The notes beneath the pieces are model-generated. The model saw only the letters and a program-made list of their open reading frames with translations, ran no database searches and had not been told where the DNA came from. Shown here in pieces: positions 10,396 to 52,272 of a stretch of DNA of 64,000 bases. Made by a program: the position numbers and the translations under genes. The DNA comes from Pengzhenrongella sicca (GTDB lineage Bacteria; Actinomycetota; Actinomycetes; Actinomycetales; Cellulomonadaceae): assembly GCF_017569225.1 (NCBI RefSeq), contig NZ_CP071868.1, positions 3,472,001-3,536,000 on the forward strand. The letters run 5' to 3'. Every line of letters begins with the position of its first letter. Within the stretch, counting starts at the first letter, position 1.

Positions 10396-11988
10396 TCAGG
10401 CCAGGTCGTCGAGGAAGCGCAGCAGGAGCCGGACGCCGTACCCGGTCGCGCCCTCGGTGATCTCGTGCCGGTCGGCCGTCGCGCGCGCGGGGCCCGCGAT
10501 GTCGAGGTGCGCCCAGCGGCGCCGGCCCGCGAACTCGCGCAGGAACAGGGCAGCCGTGATCGAGCCCGCTCCGGGCGGCGAGAGCGGGGACTGGCGCAGG
10601 TCCGCGACGTCGGACCGGATCGCGTCGAGGTACTCCTCGACGAGCGGCATGTGCCACACCGGCTCGCCCGCCGCGTCGGCGGCGGCCTCGAGCCCCGCGA
10701 CGAGCGGCCGGTCGGCCCCGTAGAGCGCGGCGTGGGTCTTGCCGAGCCCGACGCTCGCGGCACCGGTGAGCGTCGCGATGTCGATGAGCACGTCCGGATC
10801 CAGCTCGGCATCGGCGAAGGCGAGCGCGTCGGCGAGGACCATGCGGCCCTCGGCGTCCGTGTTGGACACCTCGACCGTGCGGCCGCCGTACATGCGCACC
10901 ACGTCGCCGGGGCGGTAGGACGCGGCGCCGAAGTGGTTCTCGGCGAGCGGCAACACGGCGGTCACGCGATGACCCAGGCCCTGCTCGGCCGCGGCGAGCA
11001 CCGTCGCGAGCGCGACCGCGGAGCCCGCCATGTCGGTCTTCATCGTGACCATGTTCAGGCGCTGCTTGATCGAGATGCCGCCGGTGTCGAACGTGATGCC
11101 CTTGCCGACGACGACGACGTGCCGCCCCGTGCGGCCGTCCGCCGGGCGGTAGCTCACGGTCACGAGCCGCGGCTCACTGGCCGAGCCGGAGCCCACGGCG
11201 AGGATGCCGCCGAAGCCCTCGGCGGTGAGCTCCGGGACCCCGAGCACGCGGACCTCGAGGCCGAGCGGCGCGGCGAGGTCGCTGGCCCGCTGCGCGAGCC
11301 AGGCGGGGTTCTTCGTGCTCGACGGGGTGTTGGTGAGGTCGCGGGCGAGCCACGTGGCGCGCGCGCCGACCGTGGCGGCAGTGATCGCCGCGGCGTCCTT
11401 GTCCCCATGCTTGCCGAGCAGCACGAGCTCGCGCGCGGGCTGGGCCGGCTCGAGCCCTGTGCCCTGGGTCGGCAGCCGGTAGGACGCCAGGAGGTACCCC
11501 TCGACGAAGGCGCGGACGGCCTCGGGCGAGCGACGGCCACCCTCGGAGCCGATCGTCGTGACGACCTTGCCGATCCCGCGGGTCTGACGGGCCAGGGCCG
11601 CGCCGGCGCGGCGGAGGTCGGTCGGGCTGCCGGTGCCGACGCCTACGAGGATGAGCCGCGCGGGCAGGTCGGCCCACGGCAGGTCGGGCCCGGACGTGCG
11701 CAGCCGCCGCGGCAGCGGCAGGGTCCATGCCTCGCCCGGCGATCCGGTCAGACCGGCGCGCTCGGCGAGGTCGCCGAGGGCGATCCCGTACCGCGCGGCC
11801 GCATCGGCCGTGCCGGCACGGGGCTGCACCTCGGTCTCCCCCGCCGCGGGGGGCGCGACGGGCACCGCGAGCGCCTCGACGTCGTCCGCAAGAGCGAACG
11901 AGGCGAGGACGCCGCGCGCGGCGACGACCGAGGGAAAGGGATGCCCGAGCCGCGCGCTCACGCGCGCGGAACTGCTGCGGCCGGCCAA
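10396..11988 (-). CDS. pepA: Leucyl aminopeptidase (M17 family)
   Basis: A 530-residue cytosolic metallopeptidase that removes N-terminal residues from peptides. The C-terminal catalytic half carries 'VGKGITFDTGGISIK' (Lys and Asp ligands of the two-metal centre), 'MKTDMAGSAV' and the M17 signature 'NTDAEGRMVLADAL'. The N-terminal macro-like domain spans ~1-180. The frame opens with TTG at 11988, five bases after the DUF3117 stop; a GTG at 11961 is an alternative, and neither has a clear ribosome-binding site. It ends 4 bp from the convergent methyltransferase. Confidence 0.93.
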   Translation of the reverse strand: MAGRSSSARVSARLGHPFPSVVAARGVLASFALADDVEALAVPVAPPAAGETEVQPRAGTADAAARYGIALGDLAERAGLTGSPGEAWTLPLPRRLRTSGPDLPWADLPARLILVGVGTGSPTDLRRAGAALARQTRGIGKVVTTIGSEGGRRSPEAVRAFVEGYLLASYRLPTQGTGLEPAQPARELVLLGKHGDKDAAAITAATVGARATWLARDLTNTPSSTKNPAWLAQRASDLAAPLGLEVRVLGVPELTAEGFGGILAVGSGSASEPRLVTVSYRPADGRTGRHVVVVGKGITFDTGGISIKQRLNMVTMKTDMAGSAVALATVLAAAEQGLGHRVTAVLPLAENHFGAASYRPGDVVRMYGGRTVEVSNTDAEGRMVLADALAFADAELDPDVLIDIATLTGAASVGLGKTHAALYGADRPLVAGLEAAADAAGEPVWHMPLVEEYLDAIRSDVADLRQSPLSPPGAGSITAALFLREFAGRRRWAHLDIAGPARATADRHEITEGATGYGVRLLLRFLDDLA

Positions 11989-46041: not shown

Positions 46042-46164
46042 CGAGGTAGTCCTTCCGGGGCGAGGTAGTCCTTCCGGGGCGAGGTAGTCCTTCGTGAGGG
46101 ACTACCTCGCCGGGGAGGGACTACCTCACCGGGGAGGGACTACCTCGAGGCCGGCCCGGGGCCG
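46042..46164. repeat. 19-bp inverted-repeat array, copy 1 (three forward and three reverse units)
   Basis: Three forward units of CGAGGTAGTCCTTCCGGGG start at 46042, 46061 and 46080 (period 19; the third ends in TTCGTGA). Three reverse units of GAGGGACTACCTCGCCGGG start at 46096, 46115 and 46134. The whole block can fold into one long hairpin. It is followed by a G+C tail CCGGCCCGGGGCCG (46151-46164). A shorter copy lies at 46826-46891, so the pair flanks a broken gene. The 45892-46209 gap holds nothing else recognisable. Confidence 0.85.
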
Positions 46165-46209: not shown

Positions 46210-46684
46210 TCAGTCGACCGGCCGGACTCCCGTGGCCTCCGCCGTGGCTGGCGTCTGGAACGCCTTCGCCCACAGGCGCATGAGCGCTTCCTGAGCACCC
46301 TCAAGGTTCTGCCCGAGCGCCTGCTGCTGGATCTCGCGCTGCTCGGAGCTCCAGTCGGGCACCTCGGGCACCTCGGGCACCTCGGGCACCTCGGGCACCT
46401 CGGGCACCTCGGGCACCTCGGGCCGGAGCATCACGTCGAACTCGAACTCACGCCCGATCCTGGCCCGTAGGCGCAGACGCCGGCGGGGCACCAGACGTCG
46501 AGAACCCCAGTGCCGTCGTCGGCTCGAGCTCCGCCGGCATCCGCAGCGGGAGGATCGCCGCGCGGATCTCCTCGAGGACGGCGTCGACGTCTTCCGGCGG
46601 CCGGATCGGCGCCAGGCCCGCCGCGACGTAGGCCGCCGCCAAGCGCGCAACGGAACGGTCGATGAGCAAGTCCTGACCAGCCAT
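46210..46684 (-). pseudogene. Hypothetical protein gene with apparent frameshifts and an (EVP)n repeat
   Basis: Not recognised. The N-terminal part reads well in one frame from ATG 46684 ('MAGQDLLIDRSVARLAAAYV', '...AILPLRMPAELE'), the middle in a second ('DDGTGVLDVWCPAG') and the C-terminal part in a third ('REFEFDVML', seven EVP repeats, 'WSSEQREIQQQALGQNLEGA', 'AFQTPATAEATGVRPVD'). Two indels around 46480-46540 would restore one protein of about 158 residues. The total span is not a multiple of three, consistent with a broken gene or sequence errors. It is flanked by the two 19-bp inverted-repeat arrays. Confidence 0.5.
46357..46419. repeat. Seven tandem 9-bp units encoding (Glu-Val-Pro)n
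   Basis: GGGCACCTC is repeated seven times without error, read on the minus strand as Glu-Val-Pro within the broken gene at 46210-46684. Perfect units suggest recent slippage expansion, so copy number probably varies between strains. Confidence 0.9.
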
Positions 46685-47066: not shown

Positions 47067-47996
47067 TCAGCCGGGCGTCAGCCCCGTACCTGTCGCGATC
47101 GCCGCGCGGCTGTTCTCGCGCACCACGTCGAGGAAGGTGGACGCTGCGCCGGAGACCCTCCGGCCACGTCGGCGAGCGATCGCGATGGACCAGCGCAGGT
47201 CGATCCACGATGCGGTGAGCGGGACCAGCGCGTCAGAGGCCTGGACCAGGTTCTCGGTGACGAAGCCGACACCCGTGCCGGCGGCGATGTACGTCGCGAC
47301 GAGCTCGAGGTGGGCGACCTCGACGTGGGTCCGGCGTCGGACCTGGGTGTGGGCGAACCGCTCGTCCGTCGCCCGGCGCGTACTGAACCCGTGCGGGAAC
47401 TCGACGAAGTCGACGCCGTCGAACTCCTCGACGGGGATGTCATCGGTGCGCCCCGCCCAAGGGTGCGAACGCCCGCAGCACAGCAGATAGCGCCCCGCGA
47501 CAAGCGGCTCGAACACGATCTCCGGAGGGTGGGCGAACGGGAGCGGGAGGACGACGAAGCTCAGGTCAAGGTCCCCGGCGACGATGTCGCCCAGCAGGCC
47601 TTCGCTGCCGTTCGTCGCAGTGCGCACGATGATGTCGATGCCCGGATGCTGCGCGTGCAGAGTGGTCACGGCCCTGGCGACGCCGAGCATGTCGGGGATC
47701 ACCAGCACGCCGACAGCTACGGTGCCGGCAACGCCGCCGCCGAGCTTGGCGGCGTCCTCGCGGGCGCGGTTGAAGGCGTCGACGGCGGCGCGCGCCGACT
47801 CGAGGAACGAGCGCCCCTCGGCCGTGAGCTGCACCGACCGGGTGCGCCGGTCGAACAGCCGGAAGCCGAGCTGGCGTTCGAGGCTCGCCACCGACGCCGA
47901 GACCGACGACTGCACGAGGTGCAGCCGAACCGCAGCACGGGTGAACCCGCCCTCCTCGGCGACCGCGACGAACGTCTCGAGCATCCGGAGATCCAT
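47067..47996 (-). CDS. LysR-type transcriptional regulator
   Basis: A 309-residue regulator starting MDLRMLETFVAVAEEGGFTR. The winged helix-turn-helix (~1-60, 'AVRLHLVQSSVSASVASLER') is followed by the periplasmic-binding-like effector domain (~90-300). It is transcribed divergently from the flavoprotein gene at 48109 with 112 bp between starts, the classical arrangement in which a LysR protein controls its neighbour. TACCAT at 48003-48008 lies 6 nt before the ATG. The effector is unknown. Confidence 0.93.
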   Translation of the reverse strand: MDLRMLETFVAVAEEGGFTRAAVRLHLVQSSVSASVASLERQLGFRLFDRRTRSVQLTAEGRSFLESARAAVDAFNRAREDAAKLGGGVAGTVAVGVLVIPDMLGVARAVTTLHAQHPGIDIIVRTATNGSEGLLGDIVAGDLDLSFVVLPLPFAHPPEIVFEPLVAGRYLLCCGRSHPWAGRTDDIPVEEFDGVDFVEFPHGFSTRRATDERFAHTQVRRRTHVEVAHLELVATYIAAGTGVGFVTENLVQASDALVPLTASWIDLRWSIAIARRRGRRVSGAASTFLDVVRENSRAAIATGTGLTPG

Positions 47997-48108
47997 CCCG
48001 CGATGGTATCGGCGCAGTCGATCAATCCCATCTCTATTTCCTGTTCGACATCCATGTTTGCTCCATGAACCCTTGGTCATGTCGCTCCCCTCTCTTGAAA
48101 GGACTGTC
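47997..48108. promoter_or_regulatory. LysR/flavoprotein divergent control region
   Basis: This A+T-richer gap contains TCCATG at 48051-48056 and again at 48062-48067, spaced 11 bp (one helical turn), as expected for regulator half-sites. A TACCAT hexamer at 48003-48008 (minus strand) serves the LysR gene, and GAAAGGA at 48097-48103 is the ribosome-binding site of the flavoprotein gene. The LysR operator itself is not proven. Confidence 0.45.
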
Positions 48109-50217
48109 ATGACCACCTCGACACCCGCGGCGATCACACCCCGCATCAGCGGGTTCGCCTCTGTCGCGCAGACCGAGCCATCTCCGCTGTCGCGACGGCA
48201 GAGGTTCTCGGCTGGCGTCGCCGCGTCCCTCGCCCTGTCAGGGCTGGCGGCCACCCTTGCCATGCCCGACGCGGTGCGCGACGTCGGCGCGATGCTCGGC
48301 GCCGCCGCGGGAGGCTGCCTCGCGCTCGCACTCGGCGCATCCGCCTCCGACCGACGCGGACGTCGCCGCTTCACATCGATCGGTCTCACTGTCGCCACCG
48401 CGGGAGCGATGGTTCCCCTCGTCGGCGCACCGACGCTGCCTGCGGGCCTGCTCCTCGGCATCGGCGCAATGATGACCGTCGTGGCCGCGACGGCCTGGCT
48501 CGCTGACACCGAGGAGCGAACCGGCACCTCGCTCGCGGTCGCGCTGGTCGCGATGGCCGCCGGGGTCGCCGTCGGCGCGCTTCTGGCTCCGCTCGTCGTC
48601 GCGGGCCTCGCTGTGGCAGCGCTGGCCGCCACAGCGGTGGCCGCAGAGACGGTTCGTGGCCCGCGCACCCCGGTGTACGCGATGCCTGCAGCGCCCCAGT
48701 TGGTCGGTCCCCCCGCCGCGAGGGCCGTGCTGCTCGCGCTCGTCGTCATCCTCGCGCTCCCGCGGGTGGGCCTGGCCGCCACGCTCGTCGCTGCCACCGT
48801 GCTCGCCGTTGGCGCAAGGCTCGCCGGGTTCGTGCGCCGCAGACCGCGCTCGGGCTCGGAGCCGGGTGCGCGCCACACGCGGGCCTACCGGCGCGCGGTG
48901 GCCTCGTTCGATTCCACCGCCTCGCCGGCTCCCGCACGCGGCGGCACCGTGACCACCGTCGAGGAGGTGCGGAGAGCCATTGGGCACGCCCGTGCGGCCC
49001 AGCTCGGCGTCTCGATGCACTCGACCGGCCACGCCGCGATGGGTCTGGGCGACCTGCGCCGCAACGTGCTCGTCAAGGTCGCGATGGACGGGCCGATCAC
49101 CGTCGACCCGGCGGGCGCGCTGGTGCGGGTTCCGGCCGGCCGCCCGTGGGCTGACGTGGTGCCGCTGCTCCGTCCGCACGGGCTGGCGGTGCCGCACGGC
49201 TCGTCCGGACACGTCGGTGTCGTCGGATATCTGACCCGCGGCGGACTGTCGGCCTACGGCCGCCACACCGGGGTGGCCGCGAACCACCTCGAGTCGATCG
49301 AGCTCGTCACGGCCGACGGCGAGCACCTGACGGTCAGCCGCGTGCGCGATCCCGAGCTGTTCTGGGCGCTGCGCGGCGGCGGCGGGGGCTTCGGTGTGGT
49401 CACGGCGGTCACCGTCAGGGCCTTCACTCCCGGCACGGTCGTCACGGGCACCACCGCGTGGGAACTCGACGACGCCCGTGAGGTCGCGCGGGCGTGGGCC
49501 GAGTGGACCGCTGGGGCCCCATCCGCGATCACCACGTCGCTGCGGATCCTCTCGCTGGCGCCGCTCCCCGGGATGCCGCTGCGACTCACCGGACGCCCGC
49601 TCCTCGTGGTCGACGGGACCGCCGTCGACGGCGACGCCTGCGCACGGGAGGCCGCCGGCGAGCTGCTCGCCCGCCTGCGCGGAGCCGGCCGTCCCGTGCT
49701 CGACACCTGGCGCGTCGCCGATCCGGGCGAGGTTCCGCACACCCACATGGACCCACCGATCGCTCCGGCGCACGGGTCCCGCCATGCGCTCGTTGGCGCC
49801 AGGGGGCCGGGCGACCTTAGCCAGGCCATCCAGATCACCGAGGCGATGCTCGCGGGCGCCGCCCGACCGAACAGCCGCCTCGCCTTCGCCGAGCTCCGCC
49901 AGCTCGGCGGCGCGCTCGCCTCCCCCGTGGATGACGGGGGAGCCGTCGGGCACTACCGCGGTGCGTTCGGCTGGTTGGCCATCGCACTCCACGGACGCCG
50001 GGGCGCTGCGGCCGCCAGGGAGGCGATCGACACTGCCTGGGAGCCGGTGTCACGGTGGGCGACCGGGTACTCAGCGCCGACTCTCGCCGTCGAGCGTGAG
50101 AACCCCGAGCGGTCGTTCCCGGCCGACACAGCCCTGCGCGTCGCTCAGGTACGCTCCCGGGTCGATCCAGACGGCGTGTTCGCGACCGACGTGCAGCCTG
50201 CCGCGCTCCCGCGGTGA
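48109..50217 (+). CDS. Half-MFS membrane domain fused to an FAD-linked (PCMH/BBE-like) oxidoreductase
   Basis: A 702-residue chimera in one continuous frame. Residues ~25-240 hold about eight helices with the MFS motif A 'GASASDRRGRRRF' between helices 2 and 3, i.e. roughly the N-terminal half of an MFS transporter. From ~265 a PCMH-type FAD domain follows: 'SMHSTGHAAMG' supplies the likely FAD-linking His, 'VGVVGYLTRGGLSAYGRHTG' and 'FWALRGGGGGFGVVTAV' bind FAD. The Cys used for a second covalent link in berberine-bridge-type enzymes is replaced ('PHGSSGHVG'). A BBE-like end ('RSRVDPDGVFATD') closes the protein. The substrate is unknown. Confidence 0.8.
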   Translation: MTTSTPAAITPRISGFASVAQTEPSPLSRRQRFSAGVAASLALSGLAATLAMPDAVRDVGAMLGAAAGGCLALALGASASDRRGRRRFTSIGLTVATAGAMVPLVGAPTLPAGLLLGIGAMMTVVAATAWLADTEERTGTSLAVALVAMAAGVAVGALLAPLVVAGLAVAALAATAVAAETVRGPRTPVYAMPAAPQLVGPPAARAVLLALVVILALPRVGLAATLVAATVLAVGARLAGFVRRRPRSGSEPGARHTRAYRRAVASFDSTASPAPARGGTVTTVEEVRRAIGHARAAQLGVSMHSTGHAAMGLGDLRRNVLVKVAMDGPITVDPAGALVRVPAGRPWADVVPLLRPHGLAVPHGSSGHVGVVGYLTRGGLSAYGRHTGVAANHLESIELVTADGEHLTVSRVRDPELFWALRGGGGGFGVVTAVTVRAFTPGTVVTGTTAWELDDAREVARAWAEWTAGAPSAITTSLRILSLAPLPGMPLRLTGRPLLVVDGTAVDGDACAREAAGELLARLRGAGRPVLDTWRVADPGEVPHTHMDPPIAPAHGSRHALVGARGPGDLSQAIQITEAMLAGAARPNSRLAFAELRQLGGALASPVDDGGAVGHYRGAFGWLAIALHGRRGAAAAREAIDTAWEPVSRWATGYSAPTLAVERENPERSFPADTALRVAQVRSRVDPDGVFATDVQPAALPR

Positions 50218-50901: not shown

Positions 50902-52176
50902 TCACGGCCCGAGGCAGCCGAGGGGAAGCACCCAGACCCCATCGGTCCGACGGTAGCCATACTCGGTGCCGGTGATGACGACGAGCGCACTGGGCGCGAC
51001 AGATACCCGGGTGTCGGCCAGGTGGAGCAGTGCCGCCGCCGCCTCGTCGACCAGGTCGCCCCCGAGCTTGACCTCGAACCCTGCCCAGCGCCCGTCCGCC
51101 TGCTCGACCACAAGATCGACCTCAAGGTCACCGGAGCTCTCGCGATAGTGGAAGACTCGTCCGCCGCTCGCCTCGGCGTAGATTCGAAGATCCCGAGCGG
51201 CGAGTGACTCGAACAGAAAGCCGAGCGTGTTCAGGTCACCGAGAAGCCGCTCGGGCGAGCAGTCCATCAGTCCCGCGGCGAGCGAAGGATCGACCAGCAG
51301 CCGCTTCGGCAGGCTGATCAGCCTGCTCCGTGAGCGGAGCGAGGGGCTCCACGCTTCGATCTCGTCCACGATCATCATTCGCCTCAATGCCCGAAGGTAG
51401 GGCTCGGCGGACCACCGCGTCAGACCGCCGGCGTCCTCGTCGGCACTCTCGAAGTCTCCTCCGTGCGCCCGCGCGACGATCGTGCTGAGCCGGGCCGGGT
51501 GGGCGGTGAGCTGGGCGTAGGCGTGCAAGAACCGGCGCACCAACCGCGGGTCCCGGCGAGCCCCGGACACCACATCGATGTCGTGCTCGACGATCGTTTC
51601 GAGGTAGTCGCGGATGAACTGCATCGCAACCTTCGGCTCGGCCCCGAGGAGCTGCGGCCAGCCACCAACAACAATCCGCTCGGTGTACGCCCGCAACGTG
51701 AGTTCGCTGCGCGTGGCATCCGGCGCCTCACCAGACATCAACGCAGCGAGCGACATCTGCCCCGTCGAGTAACCCTGCTCGAACAGAGTCATCGGGCGCA
51801 TCCTCATCACACTGATGCGCCCCGCGCCAGAATGCCTCGCGGCGTCGTCGTTCGGCGTCGCTGAACCCGTGAGGATGAACTGACCCGGCACTGAGCGGTC
51901 ATCCACCGCGCGCCGCACGGCGTCCCACACCCGTGGCCCGCGCTGCCACTCGTCGATCAACCGTGGCGACGGACCGTCGAGGACCAGCCGGGGATCGACT
52001 GCCACCGCACGCATCGCTTCGACGTCGACGTCGAGCAGCACCTCGCTCGCGGCACGCCGCCGCGCCGTTGCCGTCTTGCCGCATGCCTTGGGCCCCTCGA
52101 TCACGACCGCACCGAGCGCCGCAAGGCGATCCAGCAACTGGCCGTCCGCGATCCGCGGCACGTACTCGATGGCCAT
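50902..52176 (-). CDS. AAA-type ATPase with C-terminal DUF4143 domain
   Basis: A 424-residue protein. Walker A 'GPKACGKT' is at residues 28-35, Walker B 'RLIDEWQ' at ~75-81 and a sensor-like 'FILTGSA' at ~104. The second half is DUF4143, ending with 'DLEVDLVVEQADGRWAGFEV'-K, a spacing that resembles a PD-(D/E)xK nuclease core. These ATPases are common, mobile and poorly understood; roles in regulation or genome defence have been suggested. The ATG at 52176 has AAGGTG upstream. It has lower G+C than the backbone and lies inside the ychF-end insertion. Confidence 0.85.
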   Translation of the reverse strand: MAIEYVPRIADGQLLDRLAALGAVVIEGPKACGKTATARRRAASEVLLDVDVEAMRAVAVDPRLVLDGPSPRLIDEWQRGPRVWDAVRRAVDDRSVPGQFILTGSATPNDDAARHSGAGRISVMRMRPMTLFEQGYSTGQMSLAALMSGEAPDATRSELTLRAYTERIVVGGWPQLLGAEPKVAMQFIRDYLETIVEHDIDVVSGARRDPRLVRRFLHAYAQLTAHPARLSTIVARAHGGDFESADEDAGGLTRWSAEPYLRALRRMMIVDEIEAWSPSLRSRSRLISLPKRLLVDPSLAAGLMDCSPERLLGDLNTLGFLFESLAARDLRIYAEASGGRVFHYRESSGDLEVDLVVEQADGRWAGFEVKLGGDLVDEAAAALLHLADTRVSVAPSALVVITGTEYGYRRTDGVWVLPLGCLGP

Positions 52177-52211
52177 GGCACCTTCAATCGCAGCGTGGTC
52201 CGTGCGGCAAC

Positions 52212-52272
52212 CTACATCGAGCAACCAAGCCAGACTACATCTAGCAACTGGATCAAACTACAACCGGCAACC
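52212..52272. repeat. Three 15-bp iterons (23-bp period) upstream of the DUF4143 ATPase
   Basis: CTACATCGAGCAACC (52212-52226), CTACATCTAGCAACT (52235-52249) and CTACAACCGGCAACC (52258-52272) are direct repeats with an exact 23-bp period, ending 36 bp before the ATPase start. The arrangement, on one face every two helical turns, looks like binding sites for a regulator, perhaps the ATPase itself. Confidence 0.75.

Follow-up and report, generated by a model that had tools for sequence, protein, structure and literature searches.

The window, that is, the whole stretch of 64,000 nucleotides that was analyzed, encodes an old fusion between a truncated MFS transporter and an FAD-linked oxidase. 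The fusion itself, the ancestry of its halves among MFS proteins and oxidases, its presence in two families, and the common descent of the oxidase parts are established by sequence comparison. In the explanation that we consider best, and probably though not securely correct, the product is a LysR-controlled, membrane-anchored oxidase that faces the cytoplasm and has as its substrate a lipophilic redox compound, which it probably detoxifies.

Table 1. Features of the fusion gene and of the adjoining regulatory gene (positions in the window).
Feature	Positions	Strand	Basis
LysR-type regulator, 309 aa	47067-47996	-	HTH_1 and LysR_substrate domains (Pfam)
Divergent intergenic region, 112 bases; presumed LysR operator and promoters	47997-48108		Putative function
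Fusion gene, MFS-derived eight-helix membrane part and FAD-linked (McrA/EncM-like) oxidase, 702 aa	48109-50217	+	Frame, domains, homology
Membrane part (residues 1-241) with eight hydrophobic segments, derived from helices 1-8 of a 12-helix MFS transporter and degenerate	48109-48831	+	Hydrophobicity, profile comparison
Motif-A-like loop SDRRGRRR (GASASDRRGRRRF), residues 80-87	48346-48369	+	Alignment with LysR-linked transporters and with G441
Fusion junction, comprising a basic linker (residues 242-265) and the beginning of the oxidase fold	48832-48903	+	Comparison with relatives
Oxidase half, residues 258-702	48880-50214	+	FAD_binding_4, structure relatives, alignment, tree
His308 codon, TGH motif; predicted covalent flavin attachment	49030-49032	+	Invariant in alignments; link predicted from McrA/EncM/6-HDNO
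Ser366 codon; place of the second (Cys) flavin link in berberine-bridge-type enzymes	49204-49206	+	Alignment

The gene is a single continuous frame of 702 codons running from an ATG at 48109 to a stop codon ending at 50217, and the ribosome-binding-like sequence GAAAGGA lies immediately 5' of the ATG. The same frame continues open upstream of this ATG and the antisense frame is also open. At the 73% G+C of the window, an open frame is by itself weak evidence and homology carries the argument. The G+C content by codon position was typical of coding sequence before and after the junction, without a break. The uninterrupted frame reported in the original prediction was therefore borne out.

The original prediction also described a PCMH-type FAD domain. 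Pfam identified this domain (FAD_binding_4) at residues 281 to 409 (E 2e-17; 63 bits for a curated cut-off of 26.4) within a nearly complete oxidase of the McrA/EncM type. McrA and EncM were the best relatives of solved structure, matching residues 265 to 694, and the predicted fold of the oxidase was closest to that of McrA (464 columns, TM-score of 0.88 by the length of the target). According to this match, the predicted fold comprises both domains in full, the substrate domain included. The C-terminal part has kept 86% of the 78 residues conserved among the oxidases (84 to 100% in family members). These sequence comparisons identify the oxidase half as an FAD-linked oxidase of the McrA/EncM/6-HDNO (VAO/PCMH) type.

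His308, located in the TGH motif, is invariant across all aligned relatives and is the predicted site of 8-alpha covalent flavin attachment, in agreement with the His-FAD link that had been considered probable. Berberine-bridge-type enzymes form a second link to the flavin via a Cys motif, whereas enzymes of the McrA/EncM/6-HDNO type lack this second link. At the place of the Cys, the fusion protein has Ser366, and Ser or Ala occupies this position in the aligned relatives. Therefore, nothing has been lost in the fusion protein, and the earlier description of a lost Cys link was misplaced since the residue is normal for the mono-histidyl group. The bicovalent berberine bridge enzyme type (His and Cys) was ruled out by the Ser at this position.

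Relatives of the oxidase were retrieved from genomes and plasmids with 38 to 44% identity, and with 55% identity in one case (genome G350). The closest sister clade consisted of stand-alone FAD oxidases from Streptosporangiaceae and Streptomyces plasmids (40 to 44% identity). Methyltransferase, enediyne chromoprotein, or MFS genes were present near the relatives encoded by the Streptomyces plasmids. Since near relatives of the oxidase lie among biosynthetic genes, a biosynthetic role is possible for the fusion oxidase. At none of the 107 other loci is the oxidase preceded by a multi-helix extension. At two Streptomyces plasmid loci (L030 and L031), the stand-alone oxidases are direct neighbors of genes with an enediyne antibiotic chromoprotein annotation, which hints at antibiotic-related chemistry.

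Both LysR domains were found in the product of the divergent gene, confirming its assignment in the original prediction, and its most plausible start is at 47996, which leaves 112 bases to the ATG of the fusion gene. No match to the sigma-70 consensus was found in these 112 bases. Of 220 genomes of the family, 49 contained close homologs of the regulator, the genome under study being one of them. The gene divergently facing these homologs was an MFS gene at 24 of the 29 loci examined, and the three LysR-linked MFS proteins checked against Pfam were all full members of MFS_1. At 20 LysR loci, retrieved with flanks of up to 7 kb, no oxidase of the McrA/EncM type was found. The gene order indicates that the fusion gene is probably under LysR control.

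Elsewhere in the window, two adjacent arrays of 19-base units (CGAGGTAGTCCTTCCGGGG then GAGGGACTACCTCGCCGGG, 2.7 copies each) occupy positions 46042 to 46147; their cores are reverse complements and the arrays together form a large inverted repeat. Positions 46355 to 46423 consist of 7.7 perfect tandem copies of a 9-base unit (TCGGGCACC), which specify Val-Pro-Glu repeats in an open frame of the minus strand. Downstream of the fusion gene, positions 50902 to 52224 of the minus strand encode an ATPase (about 440 aa) that contains AAA_14 and DUF4143 domains.

The membrane part was originally described as about eight helices with MFS motif A, and eight hydrophobic segments and a remnant of the motif were indeed found. 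The segments start at approximately residues 33, 59, 88, 113, 141, 162, 198, and 220 and span about 240 residues, in place of the 12 (or 14) helices of an MFS transporter. Segments 1 to 6 contain no charged residue and segments 7 and 8 contain one Arg each. Both ends of the membrane part were placed in the cytoplasm (predicted N-in/C-in topology) because 20 Lys and Arg residues are present on the predicted inside loops versus 2 on the outside.

Analyzed alone, the N-terminal part did not match MFS significantly in Pfam (MFS_1, E 0.14; 11.5 bits for a cut-off of 33.4), a single-sequence search detected no significant family, and the fusion protein was not among the proteins of its genome that matched MFS_1. 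Comparison of the single N-terminal part with the LysR-linked MFS family by HMMER, based on sequence only, was not significant, and plain global alignment with MFS proteins was unspecific (score of 100 versus 93 for the reversed sequence). Profile comparison was therefore needed. Alignment with the profile of the LysR-linked MFS proteins by hhalign gave an E-value of 2e-5 and a score of 43 over 121 columns (33% identity); the reversed sequence scored 22 and 120 block shuffles scored at most 34. According to this comparison, the N-terminal part shares common ancestry with MFS proteins, and it ends at the equivalent of helix 8 in the alignment of the LysR-linked transporters. Assignment to the first eight helices of a 14-helix DHA2 transporter was dropped, as the LysR-neighboring MFS genes encode 12 helices and align colinearly. 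A mixed alignment of oxidases and transporters was misaligned and was left out of the results.

The search for the same architecture elsewhere, which had been proposed as a check, revealed a full-length fused homolog among 396 genomes of the order, in a genome (G441) belonging to another family. The N-terminal parts of the two fusions are 40% identical over 249 columns (score of 270 versus at most 158 in 200 block shuffles). They have in common the stretch ETV-GP-TP...PA-P-L-G, which differs from the transporters. The identity between the N-terminal parts at codon position 2 only slightly exceeds the shuffled maximum (0.63 versus 0.617) and thus says little about selection; the alignment score is the stronger argument. 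With a profile built from the two N-terminal parts, the LysR-linked MFS proteins were the top matches (E 1e-6), well ahead of the MFS paralogs encoded in the same genome (best E 0.86). This ranking supports, but does not prove, the LysR-linked MFS as the transporter donor. The fusion in G441 has no adjoining LysR gene, and control by LysR is therefore not a constant feature of the fusion.

A one-base frameshift, located at a CCCGGGG run (L204, about 10435 to 10500), divides the G441 oxidase into two parts that are 62% and 46% identical to the oxidase of the window. Genome G350, from the same genus as G441, encodes the 55% identical oxidase on a contig that begins 170 bases upstream; any N-terminal part would lie beyond the contig, and was sought elsewhere in that assembly and not found. 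The start of this contig (C45; L193, positions 1 to 30) resembles sequencing-adapter sequence, and we take the upstream end of the oxidase gene to be untrustworthy. In the oxidase tree, the proteins of the window, of G441, and of the contig-truncated G350 grouped together with 100/100 support; their clade has a long stem and is placed next to that of the stand-alone oxidases. Given the same fusion in G441 and the full support for a single oxidase clade, these sequences indicate that the fusion is shared, old, and rare, and is not a private recent deletion.

No further fusion was detected with the two-N-part profile among 395 genomes of the class, or with the whole protein or the N-terminal part in 221 genomes of the family, 299 genomes of the G441 family, 60 genomes of the G441 genus, and plasmids. 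The genome sets overlap, and the 1,803 genome searches in total correspond to fewer distinct genomes. Four other genomes of the genus lacked the fusion, and patterns derived from the single fusion protein retrieved no relatives in genome or viral contigs. The original prediction had envisaged that all relatives might have two separate genes; this applies to most relatives of the oxidase and of the transporter, but G441 shares the fusion.

The N-terminal part has retained 32 of 73 family-conserved transporter residues (44%, versus 94 to 100% in family members), a value obtained from one alignment of a divergent sequence with a fairly tight family. The helix-4 Arg and helix-5 Asn are among the 56% lost. 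Because of this low retention, the membrane half is unlikely to transport as its relatives do, and the transport function has probably been lost. The relaxed selection considered in the original prediction thus fits the loss of transporter residues from the membrane half, but not the preservation of its frame, its hydrophobicity, and its clear similarity to the fusion of G441. It is unlikely, for the same loss of residues and the lack of helices 9 to 12, that the protein operates as a working two-domain transporter-enzyme whose membrane half would bind or move a substrate, perhaps as a dimer, and hand it over to the oxidase. The motif-A-like loop is present in both fusions, as this reading would expect, and an MFS-like fold was predicted, all top fold matches of the N-terminal model being MFS proteins; however, the prediction had been fed MFS rows in its alignment, and its pLDDT of 62 is low. 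We likewise see only a small chance that the half-transporter still captures a hydrophobic molecule out of the membrane for delivery to the flavin oxidase ("capture and oxidise"), which, if true, would make the protein an efflux system turned into an in-membrane detoxification enzyme.

The frameshift in G441 may be a sequencing error, or may reflect decay or recent inactivation. Together with the low residue retention in the membrane half and the lack of the fusion in the other genomes of the genus, it could be taken to mean that a formerly functional fusion is being lost and that both known copies are on their way out. We consider this improbable: the copy in the window is free of stop codons and frameshifts, and its oxidase half retains conserved residues to the extent observed in intact enzymes.

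Stand-alone relatives start only about 25 to 40 residues ahead of the conserved oxidase core, and an in-frame GTG is present at 48898, as would be expected if the oxidase were produced separately from an internal start, the upstream frame being a transporter remnant that is not co-translated. This GTG is not preceded by a ribosome-binding-like site, whereas the ATG at 48109 is, the coding pattern is continuous, and the frames are joined across the junction in two families. Separate production of the oxidase is therefore quite improbable. Least probable is the original alternative of a recent in-frame deletion joining adjacent transporter and oxidase genes in this strain, without a selected function, which would account for the missing membrane part at the 107 other oxidase loci, the full-length LysR-linked MFS proteins, and the four genomes of the genus devoid of the fusion, but not for the same fusion in another family, the single oxidase clade on its long stem, the failure to find any relative with transporter and oxidase genes side by side at LysR, or a membrane half already far from its relatives.

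We thus favor the other outcome originally proposed, a membrane-tethered oxidase that uses a half transporter as its anchor, in view of the same fusion in G441 and the 100/100 support of the oxidase clade. A 12-helix MFS gene, of the kind usually divergent to LysR and presumably the donor, would have been truncated behind helix 8 and fused in frame to the gene for a stand-alone oxidase of the McrA/EncM type. The membrane part, with transporter residues lost but eight hydrophobic helices kept, would most likely be an anchor that keeps the oxidase, with its mono-histidyl FAD, at the cytoplasmic side of the membrane. The regulator, probably responsive to a small molecule, would switch the fusion gene on. 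The oxidase would then oxidize a lipophilic redox-active compound, quinone- or antibiotic-like, with transfer of the electrons to O2, and local detoxification or modification would replace efflux by the usual LysR-MFS pair. Detoxification of such a compound is our leading guess because of the McrA precedent, an McrA-type oxidoreductase and a transporter both serving self-resistance in the mitomycin producer (PMC6804068).

Through this rare but shared fusion, a piece of an efflux-type transporter appears to have become the fixed membrane part of an oxidase that is kept soluble in relatives, with a neighboring regulator whose relatives are normally encoded beside the transporter. This suggests a route from an export system to a membrane-bound modifying enzyme. 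It is also a warning that apparent "truncated transporter" genes may conceal new domain architectures.

The fusion is a new combination of already known parts. We know of no MFS-type fusion containing an FAD oxidase, and no description of an MFS-oxidase fusion of this kind was found in the open-access literature. Fusions of MFS-type membrane domains to other enzymes, such as the fused MFS/spermidine synthases and the LplT-acyltransferase fusions, also combine the two modules in one chain, but the enzyme is different. The mitomycin radical oxidase McrA (PDB 9r43) and EncM (PDB 4xlo, 3w8w) resemble the fusion oxidase in predicted fold, in the flavin His, and in the lack of a Cys link, with approximately 28% (McrA) and 23% (EncM) of residues identical when the folds are compared, but are stand-alone proteins of about 450 to 460 aa. 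The stand-alone oxidases of Streptosporangiaceae and Streptomyces plasmids differ from the fusion by the lack of a membrane part and by their gene neighbors. The LysR-divergent, 12-helix, drug-efflux-like MFS transporters of the same family share with the fusion the order of helices 1 to 8, the remnant of motif A, an ETV...P stretch after helix 6, and the LysR neighbor, whereas the fusion lacks helices 9 to 12 and most transporter-typical residues and has an oxidase attached.
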